Positions 7,391-16,303 of a stretch of 20,972 nucleotides of DNA are shown piece by piece; within the stretch, counting starts at the first letter, position 1, and every line of letters begins with the position of its first letter. Source of the stretch: Spirogloea muscicola (lineage: Eukaryota > Streptophyta > Zygnematophyceae > Spirogloeales > Spirogloeaceae); the NCBI GenBank assembly GCA_009602725.1, contig WELB01000091.1, positions 226,447-247,418 of the forward strand. Direction: 5' to 3'. The translations under genes and the position numbers were made by a program. Under the pieces are notes generated by a model that was given only the letters and a program-made list of their open reading frames with translations, had not been told where the DNA came from and searched no databases.

Positions 7391-7815
7391 CTCTACCGAT
7401 CACAGATGTGGCCTCTAACGGGGAGCCCAGCTGATGTTTCCATTGTAAAGACGAAGCTCTTTCCGAAGGGGCGCTGTTGTGCCATGGAATGTCGAGTGCC
7501 GCATAACGTCGATAGAACAGATTAGTCCGAAGTTCAGGTGAGATTGTTGGAGTCTATGTGACAGGCAGCGCAACACATTCTGAATAAAAGTAAAACACAC
7601 GAAATTAGGTATTCCTACTTTGCAAACAAAAACATTTCTGAAAAGATAGTCTAGTTAAAGTATGGTAAGAGACTTTGAGCTTGTCATGGATGATTGCAAA
7701 TTACCCCCCCATTGTATTTTCTTCAGCTGATTAGGGTACATATGCAGGTGCTCAGTTTCAAAATCATCTTAGACAATGATAAGCTATTTTCAGGAAAAGA
7801 TATGTTTTGTCTGCA

Positions 7816-9608
7816 GTCGAAAACAAGTTCATCAATGACAAATGTCAGGAGTTCTTGGCTAATGGTTTGAAGAACCATCTCACAGCTCTTATGCAGCACC
7901 AACCGTTTGCCTGCCAAAAAGGATGACTTTGGCAACTACACCGATAGGCGAATGTGTGGTGATAACATACAACTGAATGCCGCCACGCCTTCAGACCGTT
8001 ATCCAATGCCAACGCCCGAAGAGATCTTTGTCCGTGTTGGCGCAAGTAAGATCTTTTCTGTACTTGACCTTAGGCAGGGCTAATCAAATTGATATTGAGC
8101 CTCGCGACAAACAACAAAACAGCGTCTGGGGGGTTGACCAAGGTTTTGGTGTTCTATACCAAGATCAAAATGCCCTTCGGACTTAAAAATGCTCCAATTA
8201 TGTTCCAGCGAGTCATGGATGCTGTTCTGCGGGGTATTTCCTTTGCTCGTTGTCACATCGACGATGTACTGATTTTCAGCAAGGACTTCTCGGAGTACAT
8301 GACTCATGTTACAGTGGTACTGGATACAATTCACCGCGCTGGACTTCGGTGTCACCCAGGCAAATGTCGCTTTGGACTTACAGAAGTTGTTTACTTGGGA
8401 CACCAAATCTCTGACCGCGGTCTATCACGTCACGATGCCAAGGTTCAGGCTGTCCTTGAGATTCCAGCACCTACATGTCTTAAGTCATTGCGCTCTTTCC
8501 TCGCTACGGAACGAAGTGGTCTGCCCTCCTCCATCGCCTGGCACTGCATGTAGATGCCTGCCGACGTTGTCGGGCGGGTAGCTTAGGCCATTCTAGCTTC
8601 CCGCAAGCCATAGTTGCATGCTTTAGAATGCGGTTATCGTTGAGTCTGCAGCGCTCTCAGGCACTCGCAATCCACCAGCGTGCTGGTCGTGCATTAGCCC
8701 AGGCTAATGGCTTCCGTGGGGGTGGTTTGGCTTGTCAGATATGCATGTGCTCACTCGTGGATAGTGTCCCCCTTAGCCAGCTCATTACCCAGTTAAGAAG
8801 ACATTTGTAAGGCTAGAATTGGCCTCCCTTTCAATTTCATGCGCACCGCGCGCCTTCTCTCTCTTCCTTGGCTTACTCGGTTACTATTGCCGCTCCATTC
8901 CTGACTTCAGCTCCCATGCTCGACCTCTGCATGATTTGTGGAAGAAAGATGAATCGTGGAATTGGACACCAACACGTCAACTGGCATTCCAGACGTTGAA
9001 GGTTGCTTTGACACAAGACAGTTCTGCGGCGTCCTGATTACGATAAAGACTTCTTTCTTCACACCGATTGGAGTAAAGTGGCAATGGGTGCAGATCTTAC
9101 TCAGCGAGACGAAAATCAACACCATTATGTCATTGCCTATGCTAGCCGTAGAAATACATCTGCCGAGGCTAACTATTTAGCATACGAAGGTGAATTTTCA
9201 GCTGCAGTATGGGCCGTCACCCACTTCCGTCCATATTTACATGGGAGACCTTTTCAATTGATCACAGATCATCAACCTCTACAATGGTTGTTGACCACTC
9301 AGAACCTGACAGGAAAATTGGCACGCTGGGCATTAAAGCTTCAGGACTATCAGTTCAAGATTGTTCATAGACCAGGTCTTCAGCAGATGGATGCTGATGC
9401 CCTCAGTCGTATGCCACTACCTACCACAGATTCTCATCAACTAGCTCACATGACAATACGGGCGGACGGAAATCGTGTGTTTGTCGTGCGCCATCCCGTC
9501 GGTGGTCGATTCGCGTCGGTGCTGACTCGGACGCGGAGGTGGCTGCACACGTGGAGATTCAAGACAGGTCATGCATCGACTTGGCGTGAAGAGAAGAGTA
9601 CCACTTGA
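7816..9608 (+). pseudogene. Ty3/gypsy retrotransposon pol remnant (reverse transcriptase + RNase H)
   Basis: Reverse transcriptase blocks run in order across changing frames. The start of RT lies at 7816-8080 (NAATPSDRYPMPTPEEIF, then SKIFSVLDLRQG) and ends in TAA at 8081. The next block, NQIDIEPRDKQQNSVWG, is in a second frame, and a third frame from about 8130 (after a run of six G) carries KMPFGLKNAP, FQRVMDAVLRGI and the catalytic HIDDVLIFS (usual YIDD). The block ends at LKSLRSFL near 8502, where a repeat is inserted, and resumes at about 8861 with FLGLLGYYCRSIPDF. A further frameshift near 9020-9040 precedes RNase H: HTDWSKVAMGADLTQ, EGEFSAAVWAV, LITDHQPLQWLL, DADALSRM, with the acidic residues kept. 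No protease, gag or integrase is visible. It is dead but recognisable, with at least three frame breaks plus one insertion. Confidence 0.9.
8503..8860. mobile_element. Repeat insertion splitting the gypsy RT frame
   Basis: The reverse transcriptase stops at SLRSFL (about 8502) and continues with FLGLLGYY after 8860. The roughly 358 bases between do not belong to pol. Their right end, GAATTGGCCTCCCTTTC through GCGCACCGCGCGCCTTCT, recurs at 16413-16453 and in reverse complement near 1943-1980. A CTCT(T)TCCT-like string lies at both junctions, possibly a decayed target duplication. Confidence 0.65.
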
Positions 9609-9616
9609 CGACGTTC

Positions 9617-9654
9617 GACTTCAATTGCCGCCCACTTCCGTCTTGTGCGGGAGG
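9617..9654. repeat. Left part of a short tandem array interrupted by the LTR element
   Basis: TTCAATTGCCGCCCACTTCC and the following GCGGG resemble the repeat units at 11786-11910 (AATCGCTGCNCACGTTCCG, then GACGCGGGC). The LTR element at 9655-11778 lies exactly between the two parts. Confidence 0.5.
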
Positions 9655-9786
9655 TGTAACGGTAATGGACAGTTAGCGGCAATAGTTAGCCTAACAGGCT
9701 GACAGTTATAGTAATAGTATTGACGATGCATCTAGCGTGCACGACAGTTGGATGATTTGATGAGTGCCACGTAGTTCACGCATAGG

Positions 9787-9855
9787 CGCCACGTGGAGAC
9801 ACGTCATGCTCCACGTGGCGACATGAAGCGGTCCACGGGTCCAATGTGACACGTG
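9787..9855 (+). promoter_or_regulatory. G-box cluster in the LTR
   Basis: CACGTG occurs at 9790-9795, 9812-9817 and 9850-9855, with further ACGT cores between. The first two lie in a perfect 12-base inverted repeat (9787-9798 and 9809-9820). CACGTG is the core bound by plant bZIP and bHLH factors. The 3' LTR carries four (11176, 11201, 11223, 11239), one of which is mutated to CACGGG in this LTR. Confidence 0.6.
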
Positions 9856-9925
9856 GCCTAGGCAGGTAACACTGCCGAGACCAGCTGGCTGCACAGCTGT
9901 TGGCCATCTGCCGCCTGGGGGTCTC

Positions 9926-9933
9926 CTATATAG
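9926..9933 (+). promoter_or_regulatory. TATA box of the LTR promoter
   Basis: CTATATAG lies about 70 bases downstream of the last G-box. The same box in the 3' LTR (11305-11312) is the site of the nested insertion. Confidence 0.6.
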
Positions 9934-10444
9934 GGGGCTCCACTCTTGTAACAGACAGCTCTTGGCAGACGCCCAATCCATTCCCATCTGCATTAGCGCT
10001 GCCTCGGCTCCGGCGGCCTAACCCACCGTCGTTAGACCCGCAGTCGTTTCACTGGTGGAGACGCCGGTCCCTTGCGCGCGGGCAGGCCGCCAACCGACGA
10101 CGCCGGCTCCCGAGCCGAGGAGGAAGAGCGCGACGACAGCGCCACCTCTTGACGACTGAAGGGCGACGAGCGCGACACCAGCGCCACGCCGCCACGAACC
10201 CCGCTTGCGGCTCCTGACCCACGGCAAGGCCCCCCACGAGTTCCGGCAACGAGCGGACTGCGGTCAACAAGGGTAACTGGCCAGCTTAAAGCGGACGCCT
10301 GCGGCACGCACTGCTTGCGAGCATGGCGGTCCTGCTGGCCAGACAACAACAGCATGTGCCGATGCGAGCGGCAACAGCAGCAGACCTGGAACGCCAGCGA
10401 CAAGAAATCCGAGACACAATTCACGATTCGAGCAGCAGAGCAGC

Positions 10445-11026: not shown

Positions 11027-11040
11027 AGAAGAGAGAGAGA
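11027..11040 (+). other. Polypurine tract
   Basis: AGAAGAGAGAGAGA ends exactly at the first base of the 3' LTR. This is the expected position of the plus-strand primer in LTR retrotransposons and fixes the element's orientation. Confidence 0.75.
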
Positions 11041-11778
11041 TGTAACGGTAAAGGACAGTTAGCGGCAATAGTTAGCCTAACAGGCTGACAGTTATAGTAA
11101 TAGTATTGACGATGCATCTAGCGTGCACGACAGTTGGACGATTTGATGAGTGCCACGTAGTTCACGCATAGGCGCCACGTGGAGACACGTCATCATGCTC
11201 CACGTGGCGACACGTAGCGGTCCACGTGTCCAATGTGACACGTGGCCTAGGCAGGTAACACTGCTGGCTGCACAGCTGTTGGCCATCTGCCGCCTGGGGG
11301 TCTCCTATATAGACTTTGTTCATTCATTTTCGGGCTGGTTGTTCCAGCCCCTATTCTCAACGGGCGAGCACTTGCTATATAGAAGAAAGTGCTCGCCCAT
11401 TGAGAATAGGGGCTGGAACAACCAGCCCGAAAAAGAATGAACAGAGTACGAGAAGGGGGCCAGGGGAAGCGCTAAGTAACAGAAACAAAGCTGCTACGAG
11501 ACACTCAGTAACCCCTGCTAAGCAGCCGCACATCAGAAATGCTGGGCTCCTGGAAGTGGGTCCCCTGGCCAGAGCCAGAGGCAGCAGCGAGGGCTCTGCC
11601 GGCACGAAGGTGCAGCGCCCGGGCCATGGACCTCTGCAGCGAGTGGGAGCTCCTATATAGGGAGCTCCACTCTTGTAACAGACAGCTCTTGGCAGACGCC
11701 CAATCCATTCCCATCTGCATTAGCGCTGCCTCGGCTCCGGCGGCCTAACCCACCGTCGTTAGACCCGCAGTCGTTTCA
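11041..11778 (+). repeat. 3' LTR, split by a nested insertion
   Basis: Matches the 5' LTR on both sides of 11313-11660. Relative to the 5' LTR it lacks 10 bases near 11265 and has 3 extra bases near 11191. Confidence 0.9.
11313..11660. mobile_element. Family A insertion with foldback end, nested in the 3' LTR
   Basis: CTCCTATATAG occurs on both sides (11302-11312 and 11650-11660) and only once in the intact LTR, so it is an 11-base target duplication. The insert opens with an inverted repeat: 11313-11372 pairs with 11388-11447 with three mismatches I can see, around a 15-base loop. The rest (to 11649) is a family A unit closely matching 2047-2275. CTATATAG also appears in the hairpin loop (11375-11382), giving three copies in all. 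Confidence 0.8.
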
Positions 11779-11910: not shown

Positions 11911-12789
11911 GCACCCCCCAAACCGTCGTCCCATTCCCGTCGGACACGGGAAGGCCCAACCCAATCAACTAGCCGTGACAGCCTGGTCACGGCGTGCAGG
12001 CATACCGCCGCCCATGTCGATTTCTGACAGCAGTGAGCGGTGGCAGTGCCTTTTCTTGCCGCCCACACCACACACAGAGAGGTCCTCAATCATAGACCGA
12101 GAAGAAGTGGTACTCCCAATGGGGGCAAGGGCTGCGAAAAGCCAGCCCAAAAGAATTGTCAAAGGTTCGAAGAGAGCTCCAGCAAGCGCGTCGAAGGTGT
12201 GATTTACCTCAACGGGCCGTGGGTAATCAGCTAGCTAGGCCGTAGTGGGACATGGTAGGACAATGGTAGGAGTACGTCTCAGGTCACACTGGCTTTGAGG
12301 CCTGGGGTCAGATGAGCAGCATAGCTCACCCCATTAAACAATGTATTTCTCCTGACCAGCATAAGGGTGTGGAGGACCAGAGCCGAGCCAAGTCTTTCTC
12401 GGCTCTGTCTCTCCTTTTGGCCTTTGCCACTGTCGCCGCCGCCGCTGCCGCCGCTGTCGCCGTCCCTGCTGCTGCTCCTGCCGCCGCTGCCGCCGTCGCT
12501 GCTGCTGCTGCCGTCACCGCCGCCGCTATCGCCGCTGTTACAACAACGAGCGTAGTGCGCGCGTACGGTGTCACGCCAGGAGGGCGTTGCATAGGCGTCC
12601 GTGTAATCGCCGCTAGAGAGCCTCACCCCCGAGAAGCTTCTGGCACCGGCACGTAAGACCGGACGCACCTGGTAAGACGCAAAGATTGTGGCCTTGTGTG
12701 TTGTTGAGCGACTACAAGCATAACCTTGCGTTGCTCTGAGGTGTTGCATATATCCAGCACCTGTTCCTTGCAAGAGTGCATACATCTTT
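11911..12789. other. Intergenic DNA with a GCN tract, no gene recognised
   Basis: Contains a diverged family A copy (about 12095-12190: AAGCCAGCCCAAAAGAAT) and the alanine-type trinucleotide tract at 12428-12541. A + frame at 12312-12656 reads through the tract as poly-Ala; it has no domain and its length is explained by the repeat, so it is not called. Confidence 0.45.
12428..12541. repeat. (GCC/GCT)n trinucleotide repeat
   Basis: Imperfect GCC, GCT and GTC triplets. All six frames stay open through it, producing spurious ORFs on both strands. Confidence 0.85.
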
Positions 12790-13010
12790 GTTCCTCGACA
12801 CTGGGCTCAGTAGCCCCGACCGAAGTAGACAGGACTGAGCTTGGCTCCTGATCGGTTTCCAGTCACTACGAATATCGGTTACGGGTACTTGAAACTTGGT
12901 TTTGGACCGTTGAGACTCGGATACAGATACCAGCCGAGTGGTCGTATTCCTGCATTGAGTGCCCAGTGTTTATCTTGTTGCTTGCACATACTTTACAGAG
13001 CCGAGAAAGA

Positions 13011-13775
13011 CTTCCAGAGCCATGTGGGCGTAGAGGTTGGCGGCCGGTGCTGACGATCAATGCAAGCTTGCAGCATCTTCGCGGGGGCGAGGTTGGTCCA
13101 GTGAACACGGCGCCTATCTGCCAGGGAACCCAGGTAGGCAGCGTCAAGAATGTTGTACGGACCCAAGATGTCGCACACTGTATTGAAAGCAAAGCGCGCC
13201 CTTGGATGATTCTCGCGCGGCTCAACGTTCTCCACGATGTAACCAAGGTCCTTGGTCTGCCGCGCCTGAACTGCGTGCAGAAACTTCGCGAAAGGCTTGA
13301 ATAGGGCCGTCGATGGATGACCAAAACCTTTGCCTAACCCTATTGGGCTAAACCCCTGACATGGGAAGCCCGCAATGATGAGGTCTACTGGAGGTAGGAG
13401 ATTCTGCACAGGGCTAACCGCTGCCTCACAAATGTCCTGGGGGAGCAAAGAATCCCACTCAAGGAAAGTAGAATCAGTGATCAACAGAGGATACTGACTC
13501 TTTAATATGTCCAAGTGGTGCGTAGCAGCTTCGCGTGCTGCAGAATCATTGTCAATATAGAAATACCGGGCTACTTTAATATGACTAGCCATAGCGGCTC
13601 GGAATCCATTTGCTGTACCCCCGAACACTTCGACCAAAACGATACCGTCATCGGGAACCGTCCAAGGTATGATGCCGTTGTAAAGGGTACCAATTGCCTC
13701 CACATCCTGATGGCCCGCATTGGACCGTTCCCGATGACGGTATCGTTTTGGTCGAAGTGTTCGGGGGTACAGCAA
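13011..13775 (-). pseudogene. Retroelement-type cytosine-C5 DNA methyltransferase domain (first copy, left arm)
   Basis: The minus-strand frame from 13775 to 12993 encodes 260 residues with DNMT3-like catalytic motifs in order: motif I LVEVFGGTANGF (47-58), the acidic SAM-site YIDND (73-77), motif IV GFPCQGFSPIG (136-146, nucleophile C139), motif VI VENVEPREN (181-189) and RRRVHWTN (221-228). Such enzymes methylate C5 of cytosine in DNA. The ATG lies in the opposing palindrome arm, so the real start is lost; GHQDVEAIGTLYNGIIP in the spacer is probably genuine upstream protein. Homology with the other arm ends at 13011, after which the frame soon stops. The target-recognition region and motifs IX and X are absent. 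It is a truncated fragment, probably not an active enzyme alone. Confidence 0.8.
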
Positions 13776-14177
13776 ATGGATTCCGAGCCGCTATGGCTAG
13801 TCAAATTAAAGTAGCCCGGTATTCCTCTATTGACAATGATTCTGCAGCACGCGAAGCTGCTACGCACCACTTGGACATATTAAAAAGTCAGTATCCTCTG
13901 TTGATCACTGATTCTAATTTCCTTGAGTGGGATTCTTTGCTCCCCCAGGACATTTGTGAGGCAGCGGTTAGCCCTGTGCTGAATCTCCTACCTCCAGTAG
14001 ACCTCATCATTGCGGGCTTCCCATGTCAGGGGTTTAGCCCAATAGGGTTAGGCAAAGGTTTTGGTCATCCATCGACGGCCCTGTTCAAGCCTTTCGCGAA
14101 GTTTCTGCACGCAGTTCAGGCGCGGCAGACCAAGGACCTTGGTTACATCGTGGAAAACGTTGAGCCGCGCGAGAATT
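13720..14177 (+). pseudogene. Methyltransferase fragment, right arm of first copy, cut at the N
   Basis: Same domain as the minus-strand arm, starting at WTVPDDG and running through GFPCQGF to VENVEPREN, where it meets the N at 14178. It is the incomplete version of 15109-15764, and exists as a separate locus only if the 1388-base duplication is real. Confidence 0.7.
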
Positions 14178-14399
14178 NGTTCCTCGACACTGGGCTCAGT
14201 AGCCCCGACCGAAGTAGACAGGACTGAGCTTGGCTCCTGATCGGTTTCCAGTCACTACGAATATCGGTTACGGGTACTTGAAACTTGGTTTTGGACCGTT
14301 GAGACTCGGATACAGATACCAGCCGAGTGGTCGTATTCCTGCATTGAGTGCCCAGTGTTTATCTTGTTGCTTGCACATACTTTACAGAGCCGAGAAAGA

Positions 14400-15164
14400 C
14401 TTCCAGAGCCATGTGGGCGTAGAGGTTGGCGGCCGGTGCTGACGATCAATGCAAGCTTGCAGCATCTTCGCGGGGGCGAGGTTGGTCCAGTGAACACGGC
14501 GCCTATCTGCCAGGGAACCCAGGTAGGCAGCGTCAAGAATGTTGTACGGACCCAAGATGTCGCACACTGTATTGAAAGCAAAGCGCGCCCTTGGATGATT
14601 CTCGCGCGGCTCAACGTTCTCCACGATGTAACCAAGGTCCTTGGTCTGCCGCGCCTGAACTGCGTGCAGAAACTTCGCGAAAGGCTTGAATAGGGCCGTC
14701 GATGGATGACCAAAACCTTTGCCTAACCCTATTGGGCTAAACCCCTGACATGGGAAGCCCGCAATGATGAGGTCTACTGGAGGTAGGAGATTCTGCACAG
14801 GGCTAACCGCTGCCTCACAAATGTCCTGGGGGAGCAAAGAATCCCACTCAAGGAAAGTAGAATCAGTGATCAACAGAGGATACTGACTCTTTAATATGTC
14901 CAAGTGGTGCGTAGCAGCTTCGCGTGCTGCAGAATCATTGTCAATATAGAAATACCGGGCTACTTTAATATGACTAGCCATAGCGGCTCGGAATCCATTT
15001 GCTGTACCCCCGAACACTTCGACCAAAACGATACCGTCATCGGGAACCGTCCAAGGTATGATGCCGTTGTAAAGGGTACCAATTGCCTCCACATCCTGAT
15101 GGCCCGCATTGGACCGTTCCCGATGACGGTATCGTTTTGGTCGAAGTGTTCGGGGGTACAGCAA
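14400..15164 (-). pseudogene. Methyltransferase domain, second copy of the left arm
   Basis: The encoded 260 residues are identical to those of the frame at 12993-13775, shifted by 1389 bases. It carries all the same motifs and the same truncation. It is probably the same genomic locus counted twice by the assembly. Confidence 0.7.
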
Positions 15165-15866
15165 ATGGATTCCGAGCCGCTATGGCTAGTCAAATTAAAG
15201 TAGCCCGGTATTCCTCTATTGACAATGATTCTGCAGCACGCGAAGCTGCTACGCACCACTTGGACATATTAAAAAGTCAGTATCCTCTGTTGATCACTGA
15301 TTCTAATTTCCTTGAGTGGGATTCTTTGCTCCCCCAGGACATTTGTGAGGCAGCGGTTAGCCCTGTGCTGAATCTCCTACCTCCAGTAGACCTCATCATT
15401 GCGGGCTTCCCATGTCAGGGGTTTAGCCCAATAGGGTTAGGCAAAGGTTTTGGTCATCCATCGACGGCCCTGTTCAAGCCTTTCGCGAAGTTTCTGCACG
15501 CAGTTCAGGCGCGGCAGACCAAGGACCTTGGTTACATCGTGGAAAACGTTGAGCCGCGCGAGAATTATCGAAGGGCGCGCTTTGACTTCAATACGGTGTG
15601 CGACATCTTGGGTCCGTACACCATTCTTGACGCTGCCTACCTGGGCTCCCTGGCAGATAGGCGCCGTGTTCACTGGACCAACCTCGCACCCGCGAAGATG
15701 CTGCAAGCTTGCATCGATCGTCAGCACCGGCCGCCCAACCTCTACGCCCACATGGCTCTGGAAGGTAGTTGAGCAGTCTCAAACTAGGATCAGTCAGAAA
15801 GACCTTGCCTATCAGTTCTGCTTGTGGTTGCAGGAAAAGGGTTACGGCAAGTCCAGGGTCTTTTGA
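15109..15866 (+). pseudogene. Cytosine-C5 DNA methyltransferase domain, right arm with native downstream sequence
   Basis: Carries motif I (VEVFGGTANGF), GFPCQGFSPIG, VENVEPREN and RRRVHWTNLAP, about 97% identical in DNA to the left arm. Near 15734 it has one extra C (GCCGCCC versus GCCGCC), which shifts the frame: the first frame ends at 15774, while the frame matching the left arm (TSTPTWLWK) continues with VVEQSQTRISQKDLAYQFCL to TGA at 15864-15866. Homology between arms stops at 15764, just before GTAGTT, which also looks like a splice donor. The substitution pattern keeps all catalytic residues. It is followed closely by the zinc-knuckle segment, suggesting both come from one retroelement polyprotein. 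Confidence 0.8.
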
Positions 15867-16303
15867 TGATGCGTCGACAATACCTCAACAAGAAGGACGT
15901 CGACATTGAAGATGTCTACTGAGTAATGTTGGACAAAGAAACTGACGACTTTAAATTGGAATGTGCGGATGAACGCTTTGCAGGCGCTCAAGGCACTGCT
16001 GAGAAGAAGCCGACTGCTGTGTCACCAGACAAGGCCAGAGGTATGAAGAAGGCCTTTGCAGCTTACCCATCCGTTGCGTGTCCAACAGAGATTTCTGTGA
16101 CTAGGTCGGTCACAGAATGTCATGGGTGTTGTAAACAAGGTCACGTAAGGAGAGATTGTCCCAGGAGTCACCAGACTTCAGTTGCTCTATGTGCCTATTG
16201 CTCCAAACCGGGTCACATAGAAGAACAGTGTTGGGGCAAGTTTCCAGGCAAAACGACAAGGAGCCGCCGGCGCGTGGTCAATCAGTTTCCTCCTCTCTCC
16301 TAG
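15866..16303 (+). pseudogene. Gag-like fragment with two CCHC zinc knuckles
   Basis: A + frame from 15866 (MMRRQYLNKKDVDIEDVY) ends in TGA at 15920-15922; the same frame reopens at ATG 15926 for 125 codons to 16303. That part has two zinc knuckles of the form C-X2-C-X4-H-X4-C: CHGCCKQGHVRRDC (65-78) and CAYCSKPGHIEEQC (89-102), followed by a basic stretch (TRSRRR). Paired CCHC knuckles are typical of retrotransposon Gag nucleocapsid, which binds RNA. Matrix and capsid parts are not recognised. The upstream frame (QKDLAYQFCLWLQEKGYGKS) joins it only across a frameshift near 15860. It is broken, but its position 100 to 350 bases after the methyltransferase points to one element. Confidence 0.75.

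Follow-up and report, generated by a model that had tools for sequence, protein, structure and literature searches.

Identity of the window locus

In the genome of Spirogloea muscicola, a fragment of a C5 DNA methyltransferase (DNMT) is followed on the same strand by two zinc knuckles of the Gag type, and this raises the question of whether the two are parts of a methyltransferase-carrying retrotransposon and, if so, of what kind this element is. The locus lies in a stretch of 20,972 nucleotides (C91:226447-247418; WELB01000091.1), which we will refer to as the window, and the genome searched for related sequences consisted of 153.1 Mb in 471 contigs. The features of the window that bear on this question are listed below.

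15062 to 15772, plus strand: C5 DNA methyltransferase (DNMT) fragment, open frame of 236 aa, PF00145, aligned to longer copies
15765 to 16303, plus strand: degenerate gag fragment directly behind the DNMT piece, with an internal frameshift and stop
16118 to 16159, plus strand: CCHC zinc knuckle 1, CHGCCKQGHVRRDC, read from the sequence
16190 to 16231, plus strand: CCHC zinc knuckle 2, CAYCSKPGHIEEQC, read from the sequence
7717 to 8505, plus strand: reverse transcriptase (RT) fragment of the same element kind (RVT_1, E 3.1e-16; tblastn)
8822 to 9458, plus strand: end of RT and RNase H fragment (RT_RNaseH, E 1.9e-35)

The methyltransferase assignment is based upon a Pfam match to PF00145 at 15062-15769 on the plus strand (E 1.8e-9, score 37.9 bits, cut-off 22), and the segments GFPCQGFSPIG, VENVEPREN, and RRRVHWTN, from which a first-pass annotation of this DNA had recognized such a domain, all lie within the frame at 15062-15772. 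The fragment spans motifs I to VIII and the C-terminal motifs IX-X are absent, the motif numbers (I to X) following the customary scheme. The annotation had also noted two CCHC knuckles behind this domain on the same strand, with the intervening residues open in shifted frames, and both observations are borne out: the region at 15806-16252 aligns by tblastn with residues 230-372 of the gag from another copy (L012, in C157) with 41.6% identity, and the frameshift and stop lie in gag between the DNMT and the knuckles. The start of gag at about 15765 was set by eye against the L012 gag, and the zf-CCHC profile is weak in the window (E 0.32; 11.6 bits, under the Pfam cut-off of 20.8). Further upstream, the RT fragment is 89% identical at the DNA level to the RT in locus L005 (C341), and about 320 nt of inserted sequence separates it from the piece containing the end of RT and RNase H. 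The window locus is a non-working element, and it is almost certainly a decayed and rearranged relic of a methyltransferase-carrying retrotransposon.

Other sequences in the window include a pectate lyase exon at 140-766 (PF00544, E 4e-17) and a pair of direct repeats at 9651-10051 and 11037-11778, the pieces of which are 93-100% identical and enclose a 1-kb interior. A different repeat interrupts the right copy of this pair for about 330 nt, and the pair may represent a small non-autonomous LTR element. A family of short dispersed repeats is present in both orientations at 1655, 1879, 2047, 2433, 11313 (inverted), and 11382, and it also adjoins the C157 copy (L012, at about 940-1090).

Copies elsewhere in the genome and their domain order

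Searched with the window DNMT, the genome gave at least 153 matches (236 candidates, 150 of them scored), which form about 100 clusters, the cluster counts being based upon 150 of the 153 matches. Some of these copies retain open frames, the longest being of 1411 aa, and the order of the domains was read on four copies with long frames. The most complete of them, in C2, answers the call of the first-pass annotation for fuller copies, as it contains gag, protease, and DNMT followed by RT, RNase H, integrase, and a PHD finger. Its first open reading frame (ORF1, 1411 aa) consists by Pfam of CCHC, an aspartic protease, and then the DNMT; the protease (21.9 vs. 28.2 bits) and zf-CCHC (18.3 vs. 20.8) are below their cut-offs, and both are in the expected order. 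The second (ORF2, 1037 aa) contains RT, RNase H, the integrase zinc domain (Integrase_H2C2), rve, and the PHD finger. The best match of the integrase/RT region is the Ty3 Gag-Pol (4.5e-103), and no tyrosine recombinase family was found in either C2 ORF by Pfam at E 0.1. The PHD finger was detected in two copies (1e-9 and 1.3e-10), with no chromodomain in the Pfam listing alongside it. In C157, the DNMT shares one 1250-aa open frame with gag and protease; the PHD finger is present in this copy and an RT match is absent. The DNMT frame in C134 continues into the start of RT. A copy in C17 (L046, C17:277000-282500) has gag, protease, RT, and integrase, with no DNMT match between its protease and RT. 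Its RT pieces show 90-94% aa identity to C2, except for a short end piece (58%), and this copy does without the DNMT.

The same order is seen more broadly when pairs of same-strand matches within 6 kb of a DNMT are counted, where one locus may count more than once. In such pairs gag is upstream 51 times and downstream five times, integrase is downstream 51 times and upstream three times, and RT, for which the counts are limited to the 46 of 106 matches with at least 53% identity, is downstream 40 times and upstream twice. Because gag lies upstream, and RT and integrase downstream, in most of these pairs, the arrangement in the window, where the methyltransferase precedes the knuckles, is an exception; it is best read as a local rearrangement that is uninformative on the order within the element, and it does not represent the element order, as the initial description of the locus could suggest. 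The same description had allowed that the association would be accidental if other copies never lay near knuckles or RT; such neighbors do occur, a gag, RT, or integrase match having been found within 6 kb of 55 of 100 DNMT clusters, and the association is not an accidental one.

Taken as a whole, the feature is very probably a multi-copy retrotransposon of the Ty3/Gypsy type with a DNMT3-type cytosine methyltransferase, of which the window holds a decayed, rearranged relic, and its split-repeat mechanism and functions, which are considered below, are in part inferred.

Type of the methyltransferase

The window DNMT taken as a single sequence has HhaI as its best match (0.0014). A profile built from seven DNMT copies matched DNMT3A best (1e-9), followed by HaeIII (2.5e-9) and DRM2 (6e-4). 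In a structure search, the best 50 of 140 fold matches (E 0.001) were DNMT3 chains or complexes containing DNMT3, the AlphaFold model used being of low confidence (pLDDT 55.4, pTM 0.60). The motifs in the alignment follow the order I (LELFGG), IV (GFPC.GFS), VI (ENV), VIII (R.R), and X-like (GQAFDLN), and because this order is the usual, unrearranged one, the element DNMT is, as judged from its sequence, not a DRM. The earlier description of the domain as DNMT3-like therefore receives moderate support: the best profile match and the fold point to DNMT3, but HaeIII scores nearly as well and the model is weak.

Exons matching PF00145 that belong to the host were observed in three similar places (C256, C168, and C234) and in two others (C10 and C23). 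From motifs judged by eye, C256 is MET1/DNMT1-like and C10 is Dcm-like, both look intron-containing, and the two host loci read would accordingly be of other kinds than the element DNMT. The suggestion that the window contains a host DNMT fragment beside a separate retroelement, in favor of which are the unusual order in the window and the frame break between DNMT and knuckles, is contradicted by the long frames joining gag, protease, and DNMT in C2 and C157 as well as by the different kinds of DNMT at these host loci, and we consider it to have a negligible probability.

The exon spacing in C256, C168, and C234 is alike (1613, 1653, and 1660 nt). The host is photosynthetic, with 68 LHC-domain matches in this genome, and LHC genes also occur in threes (C130, C37, and C98). 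Of the ordinary LHCII chains, the nearest to one LHCII exon are the moss entries 8htu and 7xqp (about 340 bits), the Chlamydomonas entry 6kac scoring 318 bits; the multi-domain chain 9vfj has a larger summed score (417 bits), of which its best stretch contributes 232. No match to rbcL (PF00016) was found. A genome triplication is reported for S. muscicola in the portion of the literature source available (PMC7994812), and the host genes in threes suggest the state expected after whole-genome triplication.

Ends, repeats, and target-site duplications

The ends of the element were read in three copies with ORFs, and two of them show the plan A-ORFs-B-A-B, where A and B are repeated segments. In C65, an A1 into which other sequence has been inserted is followed by the ORFs, B1, A2, and B2, with A of about 1.05 kb and B of about 0.21 kb. 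The plan in C328 is the same with a shorter A, and in this copy there is no protease match and a further piece of A is found in its place. The C2 copy shows A-ORFs-B only. Matches in the genome number at least 40 for the left end of A (127 candidates) and at least 41 for B (86 candidates), with 40 candidates scored in each case, and from these, five solo A-B units were taken, picked for an A-B distance of about 1.1-1.5 kb. All eight insertions with both ends readable, viz. C65, C328, C2, and these five units, combine TG...CA ends with a target-site duplication (TSD) of 4 bp, as listed below; in six other stretches (C17 twice, C174 twice, C240, and C2:433) one end or none was found, and these are outside the TSD count.

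Element copies: C65, ACAC; C328, GTGC; C2, GGCT
Solo A-B units: C370, GACT; C274, ACTG; C52, GGCT; C384, CCGC; C137, GCTG

The left end of C137 is slightly changed (TGTTGTG vs. TGTCGTG). The letters CA-GC-TG precede the second A in all three copies where it is seen (C65, C328, and C17), B itself being unmatched beside this junction in C17. The solo A-B units and the A-ORFs-B copies are the expected products of recombination between two As or two Bs.

LTRs had been anticipated on full-length copies, but C65 and C328 carry A at the left and B-A-B at the right, and not the same LTR at both ends as in a standard LTR Gypsy element; the other trait of such elements, TG...CA ends with a short TSD, is present in all eight insertions. 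A direct repeat of about 1.3 kb (80%) around the C2 copy was rejected as a pair of LTRs, since the element ends inside it, with TG/CA and the GGCT duplication. Four short patterns for a tRNA primer-binding site gave no matches in the C2 copy. Elements of the DIRS/PAT/Ngaro type have split direct repeats and are not known to make a target-site duplication; the element described here resembles them in the first respect but differs in the second.

Palindromes at DNMT loci

The DNMT fragment in the window makes up the right arm of an inverted repeat, and part of this region is duplicated.

14428 to 15054, minus strand: left arm, DNMT sense on the minus strand, open frame at 14382-15179 (265 aa)
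15055 to 15108: spacer of 54 nt between the head-to-head arms
15109 to 15735, plus strand: right arm, DNMT sense on the plus strand, 627 nt, 97% complementary to 14428-15054
12787 to 14175 and 14176 to 15564: duplicate of 1389 nt, identical at 1388 of 1389 positions, the sole mismatch being an N at 14178

A first comparison of clusters that contain matches of opposite strand no more than 500 bp apart gave 17/103 for DNMT, 0/39 for RT, 1/81 for integrase, and 2/92 for gag. When queries of the same length were used, with matches of at least about 51 bits (141/160 of the integrase-PHD and 114/149 of the protease matches), the corresponding values for integrase-PHD and protease were 3/99 (p 0.0016) and 6/92 (p 0.044). 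At up to 1500 bp they were 18/102 for DNMT, 4/94 for integrase-PHD (p 0.003), and 10/88 for protease (p 0.30), and gag reached 9/85 at up to 3000 bp. With matches of at least 125 bits, DNMT had 4/50 vs. 3/139 (p 0.08); a comparison at 105 bits (10/62 vs. 3/140) was set aside as unmatched, since the integrase and gag rows stop at about 125 bits. A strong excess specific for DNMT was therefore rejected, as it shrank under matched scores, was moderate within 500 bp and was gone in relation to protease within 1500 bp. A moderate excess of short-looped palindromes at the DNMT is likely from these counts.

The simplest explanation of this excess would be fold-back (snap-back) copying. That the palindromes arise in this way in reverse transcription, or else from break repair, often near the linker that precedes the DNMT, we regard as a serious possibility of somewhat under even probability. 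In its favor, the sense DNMT of C174 and C365 has RT and integrase downstream and is immediately preceded by an inverted N-terminal piece of the DNMT, and the head-to-head junctions of four loci (the window, L020, L025, and L030) are in the pre-DNMT linker. The junctions vary between loci, however: those of L022, L023, L024, L029, and L032 are head-to-head inside the DNMT and those of L019, L021, L026, L027 (twice), L028, and L031 are tail-to-tail, which a single stall site does not explain, and all of these loci were picked for looking palindromic and hence are not a random sample.

That the window palindrome was created during assembly or by long reads is unlikely. Because the 1389-nt duplicate is exact and has a lone N at its join, the segment at 12787-14175 is probably an unmerged contig overlap; it holds a further DNMT palindrome, and one of the two DNMT palindromes would then be unreal. 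The artefactual appearance is nevertheless limited to this second copy, as the arms of the palindrome at 14428-15735 differ at 18 of 627 positions (nine synonymous and nine nonsynonymous by count). At the DNA level, the arms of another palindrome, in C24, are 80% and 76% identical to the arm in the window, so that the C24 palindrome at least is old. Inverted pairs of gag/protease with equal scores in both copies were also observed (C91:424316/428202, C7:878358/881314, and C268:119072/121345), and these look as if they were recent, gene-converted, or made by the assembly.

A hairpin locus can make small RNAs against an element, as is the case for Mu killer in maize, and by analogy the DNMT inverted repeats could be selected hairpin loci that silence this element. 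The both-strand counts within 500 bp would agree with this, but the loss of the excess over protease at 1500 bp, the values at 125 bits, and the differing head-to-head and tail-to-tail junctions all argue against it, and we regard it as improbable.

Selection, mosaicism, and the CpG record

The dN/dS ratios of the DNMT relative to C2, with frame-shifted stretches dropped, are 0.20 for C328 and 0.12 for C65 (0.38 and 0.18, respectively, before these were dropped), and dS is saturated in wider pairs. A comparison of C328 with C65 gives about 0.83 (22.5 nonsynonymous and 8.5 synonymous changes), because of which these two copies are taken to be decaying. For the PHD finger, the ratios were 1.06 and 0.70 in near pairs (9 and 10 changes) and 0.31 for C174, and constraint in the near copies is not clearly indicated.

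The dS of gag is 0.38-0.41 in pairs where that of the other domains is 0.03-0.11, and for C174 (L044) the RT has a dS of 0.71 and the DNMT is saturated. As dS differs among domains of the same pair, modules of the element have probably been exchanged between lineages. RT and integrase showed far greater similarity than DNMT or gag for L044 (C174) and for L042/L043 relative to C2, and likewise for the window RT relative to L005.

C>T/G>A changes were found in 10 of 713 CpG site-comparisons and 41 of 4040 comparisons at other C/G sites, which gives no clear signal of CpG decay in the element copies. The observed/expected ratio of CpG is 0.67-0.72 for the three copies of the element, as compared with 0.80 for three LHC loci and 0.53 for the MET1-like locus. 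That these copies are heavily methylated at CG is not favored by the mutation record and the CpG ratios.

Proposed replication and functions

The TG...CA ends and 4-bp TSDs point to a retroviral-type integrase as the enzyme that inserts the element. In DIRS/PAT/Ngaro elements, the RNA ends are proposed to be completed by means of the internal B-A junction, and by analogy the RNA of the present element would end inside the outer A and B and be completed by copying its own internal B-A junction. The DNMT would be made with Gag-Pol and, from its predicted activity, would most likely methylate the element cDNA or the new insertion, so that the methylated element would resemble host DNA or stay quiet; such self-marking has, in our estimate, an even chance of being correct. 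The PHD finger borne by the integrase is predicted to read a histone tail and would guide insertion. We regard this targeting as possible and rate it below self-marking, the estimate having been lowered because of the PHD dN/dS ratios given above, which are based upon few changes. The solved chains closest to the element PHD include ATXR5, PHF21A, BAZ2, and UHRF1. An acidic residue inside the second CxxC of PHD fingers contacts K4; this residue is a serine here, and specificity for unmethylated H3K4 is not claimed. The gag piece would have come to lie behind the DNMT in the window when the DNMT segment underwent an inverted duplication and a deletion or rearrangement took place.

A broader proposal, which we put forward tentatively, is that these elements constitute a replication class of their own, in which split direct repeats, and not LTRs, serve a Gypsy polymerase and an integrase of the retroviral type, and a DNMT3 writer and PHD reader form a loop that inserts into chosen chromatin and then marks it, common to at least two streptophyte algal lineages.

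Comparison with known systems

The element is like chromoviruses, so far as the sources available describe them, in that the Gypsy integrase carries a C-terminal domain of the histone-reader type, but this domain is a PHD finger instead of a chromodomain and the terminal repeats differ. In the accounts of PAT and Ngaro elements available, split direct repeats of the plan A1-ORFs-B1-A2-B2 (PMC4157794; PMC8547959) and, for Ngaro, solo A-B units (PMC8547959) are likewise described, whereas the rve integrase, TG...CA ends, and 4-bp TSDs, and the absence of a tyrosine recombinase match in the C2 ORFs, set the present element apart. The 4-bp TSDs and TG...CA ends point to DIRS-like split repeats being usable by an integrase of the retroviral type, and make this replication route testable. 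SymbioDIRS-Dnmt3, as given in the main text of PMC5890265, shares with it a DNMT3 within a retrotransposon and the plan A-coding region-B-A-B, which that paper sets out for the elements of Symbiodinium, but it has a tyrosine recombinase and a DIRS reverse transcriptase in place of the rve integrase observed here.

Retrotransposons carrying the kind of enzyme by which they are silenced have been reported from dinoflagellates and one charophyte (de Mendoza et al., 2018; PMC5890265), and the latter, KnitGypsy-Dnmt3 of Klebsormidium nitens, contains an intronless DNMT3 in a Gypsy polyprotein with Ka/Ks below 0.2 and repeats that are "the same as that of a DIRS retrotransposon" (PMC5890265). In the part of another source available, retrotransposon DNMT3s are cited as being in "LTR Copia and DIRS" elements (PMC12344493), a label at odds with the Gypsy domains both here and in PMC5890265. 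Among titles and the openings of abstracts, a single literature source was found for the KnitGypsy name, and no description was found of PHD-bearing Gypsy, zygnematophyte, or split-repeat relatives.

The first-pass annotation had left it to a full-length relative to show whether the class is known or new. Set beside its description, KnitGypsy-Dnmt3 is of the same kind, with an intronless, unrearranged DNMT3-type domain in gag-pol frames, many copies, and a Gypsy-type RT, RNase H, and rve integrase combined with a DIRS-like repeat plan. The differences in relation to its main text are that in the present element a PHD finger ends ORF2 and that TG...CA ends and 4-bp TSDs are observed; the terms "PHD" and "target site" are absent from that main text, where the TSDs mentioned concern SymbioLINE, and its figures or supplements may show either. 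The PHD finger next to the DNMT suggests targeted insertion together with self-marking. The window itself, being a relic, offers a modest lesson. With regard to selection the comparison is mixed, the Ka/Ks of KnitGypsy-Dnmt3 standing against the ratios relative to C2 and the much higher one between C328 and C65 reported above. In the other features tested the element matches KnitGypsy-Dnmt3, by description and not by sequence; the host differs, being S. muscicola here and K. nitens there, and the presence of the same DNMT element and repeat plan in a second streptophyte host would imply that this class is either old or moving between algae.
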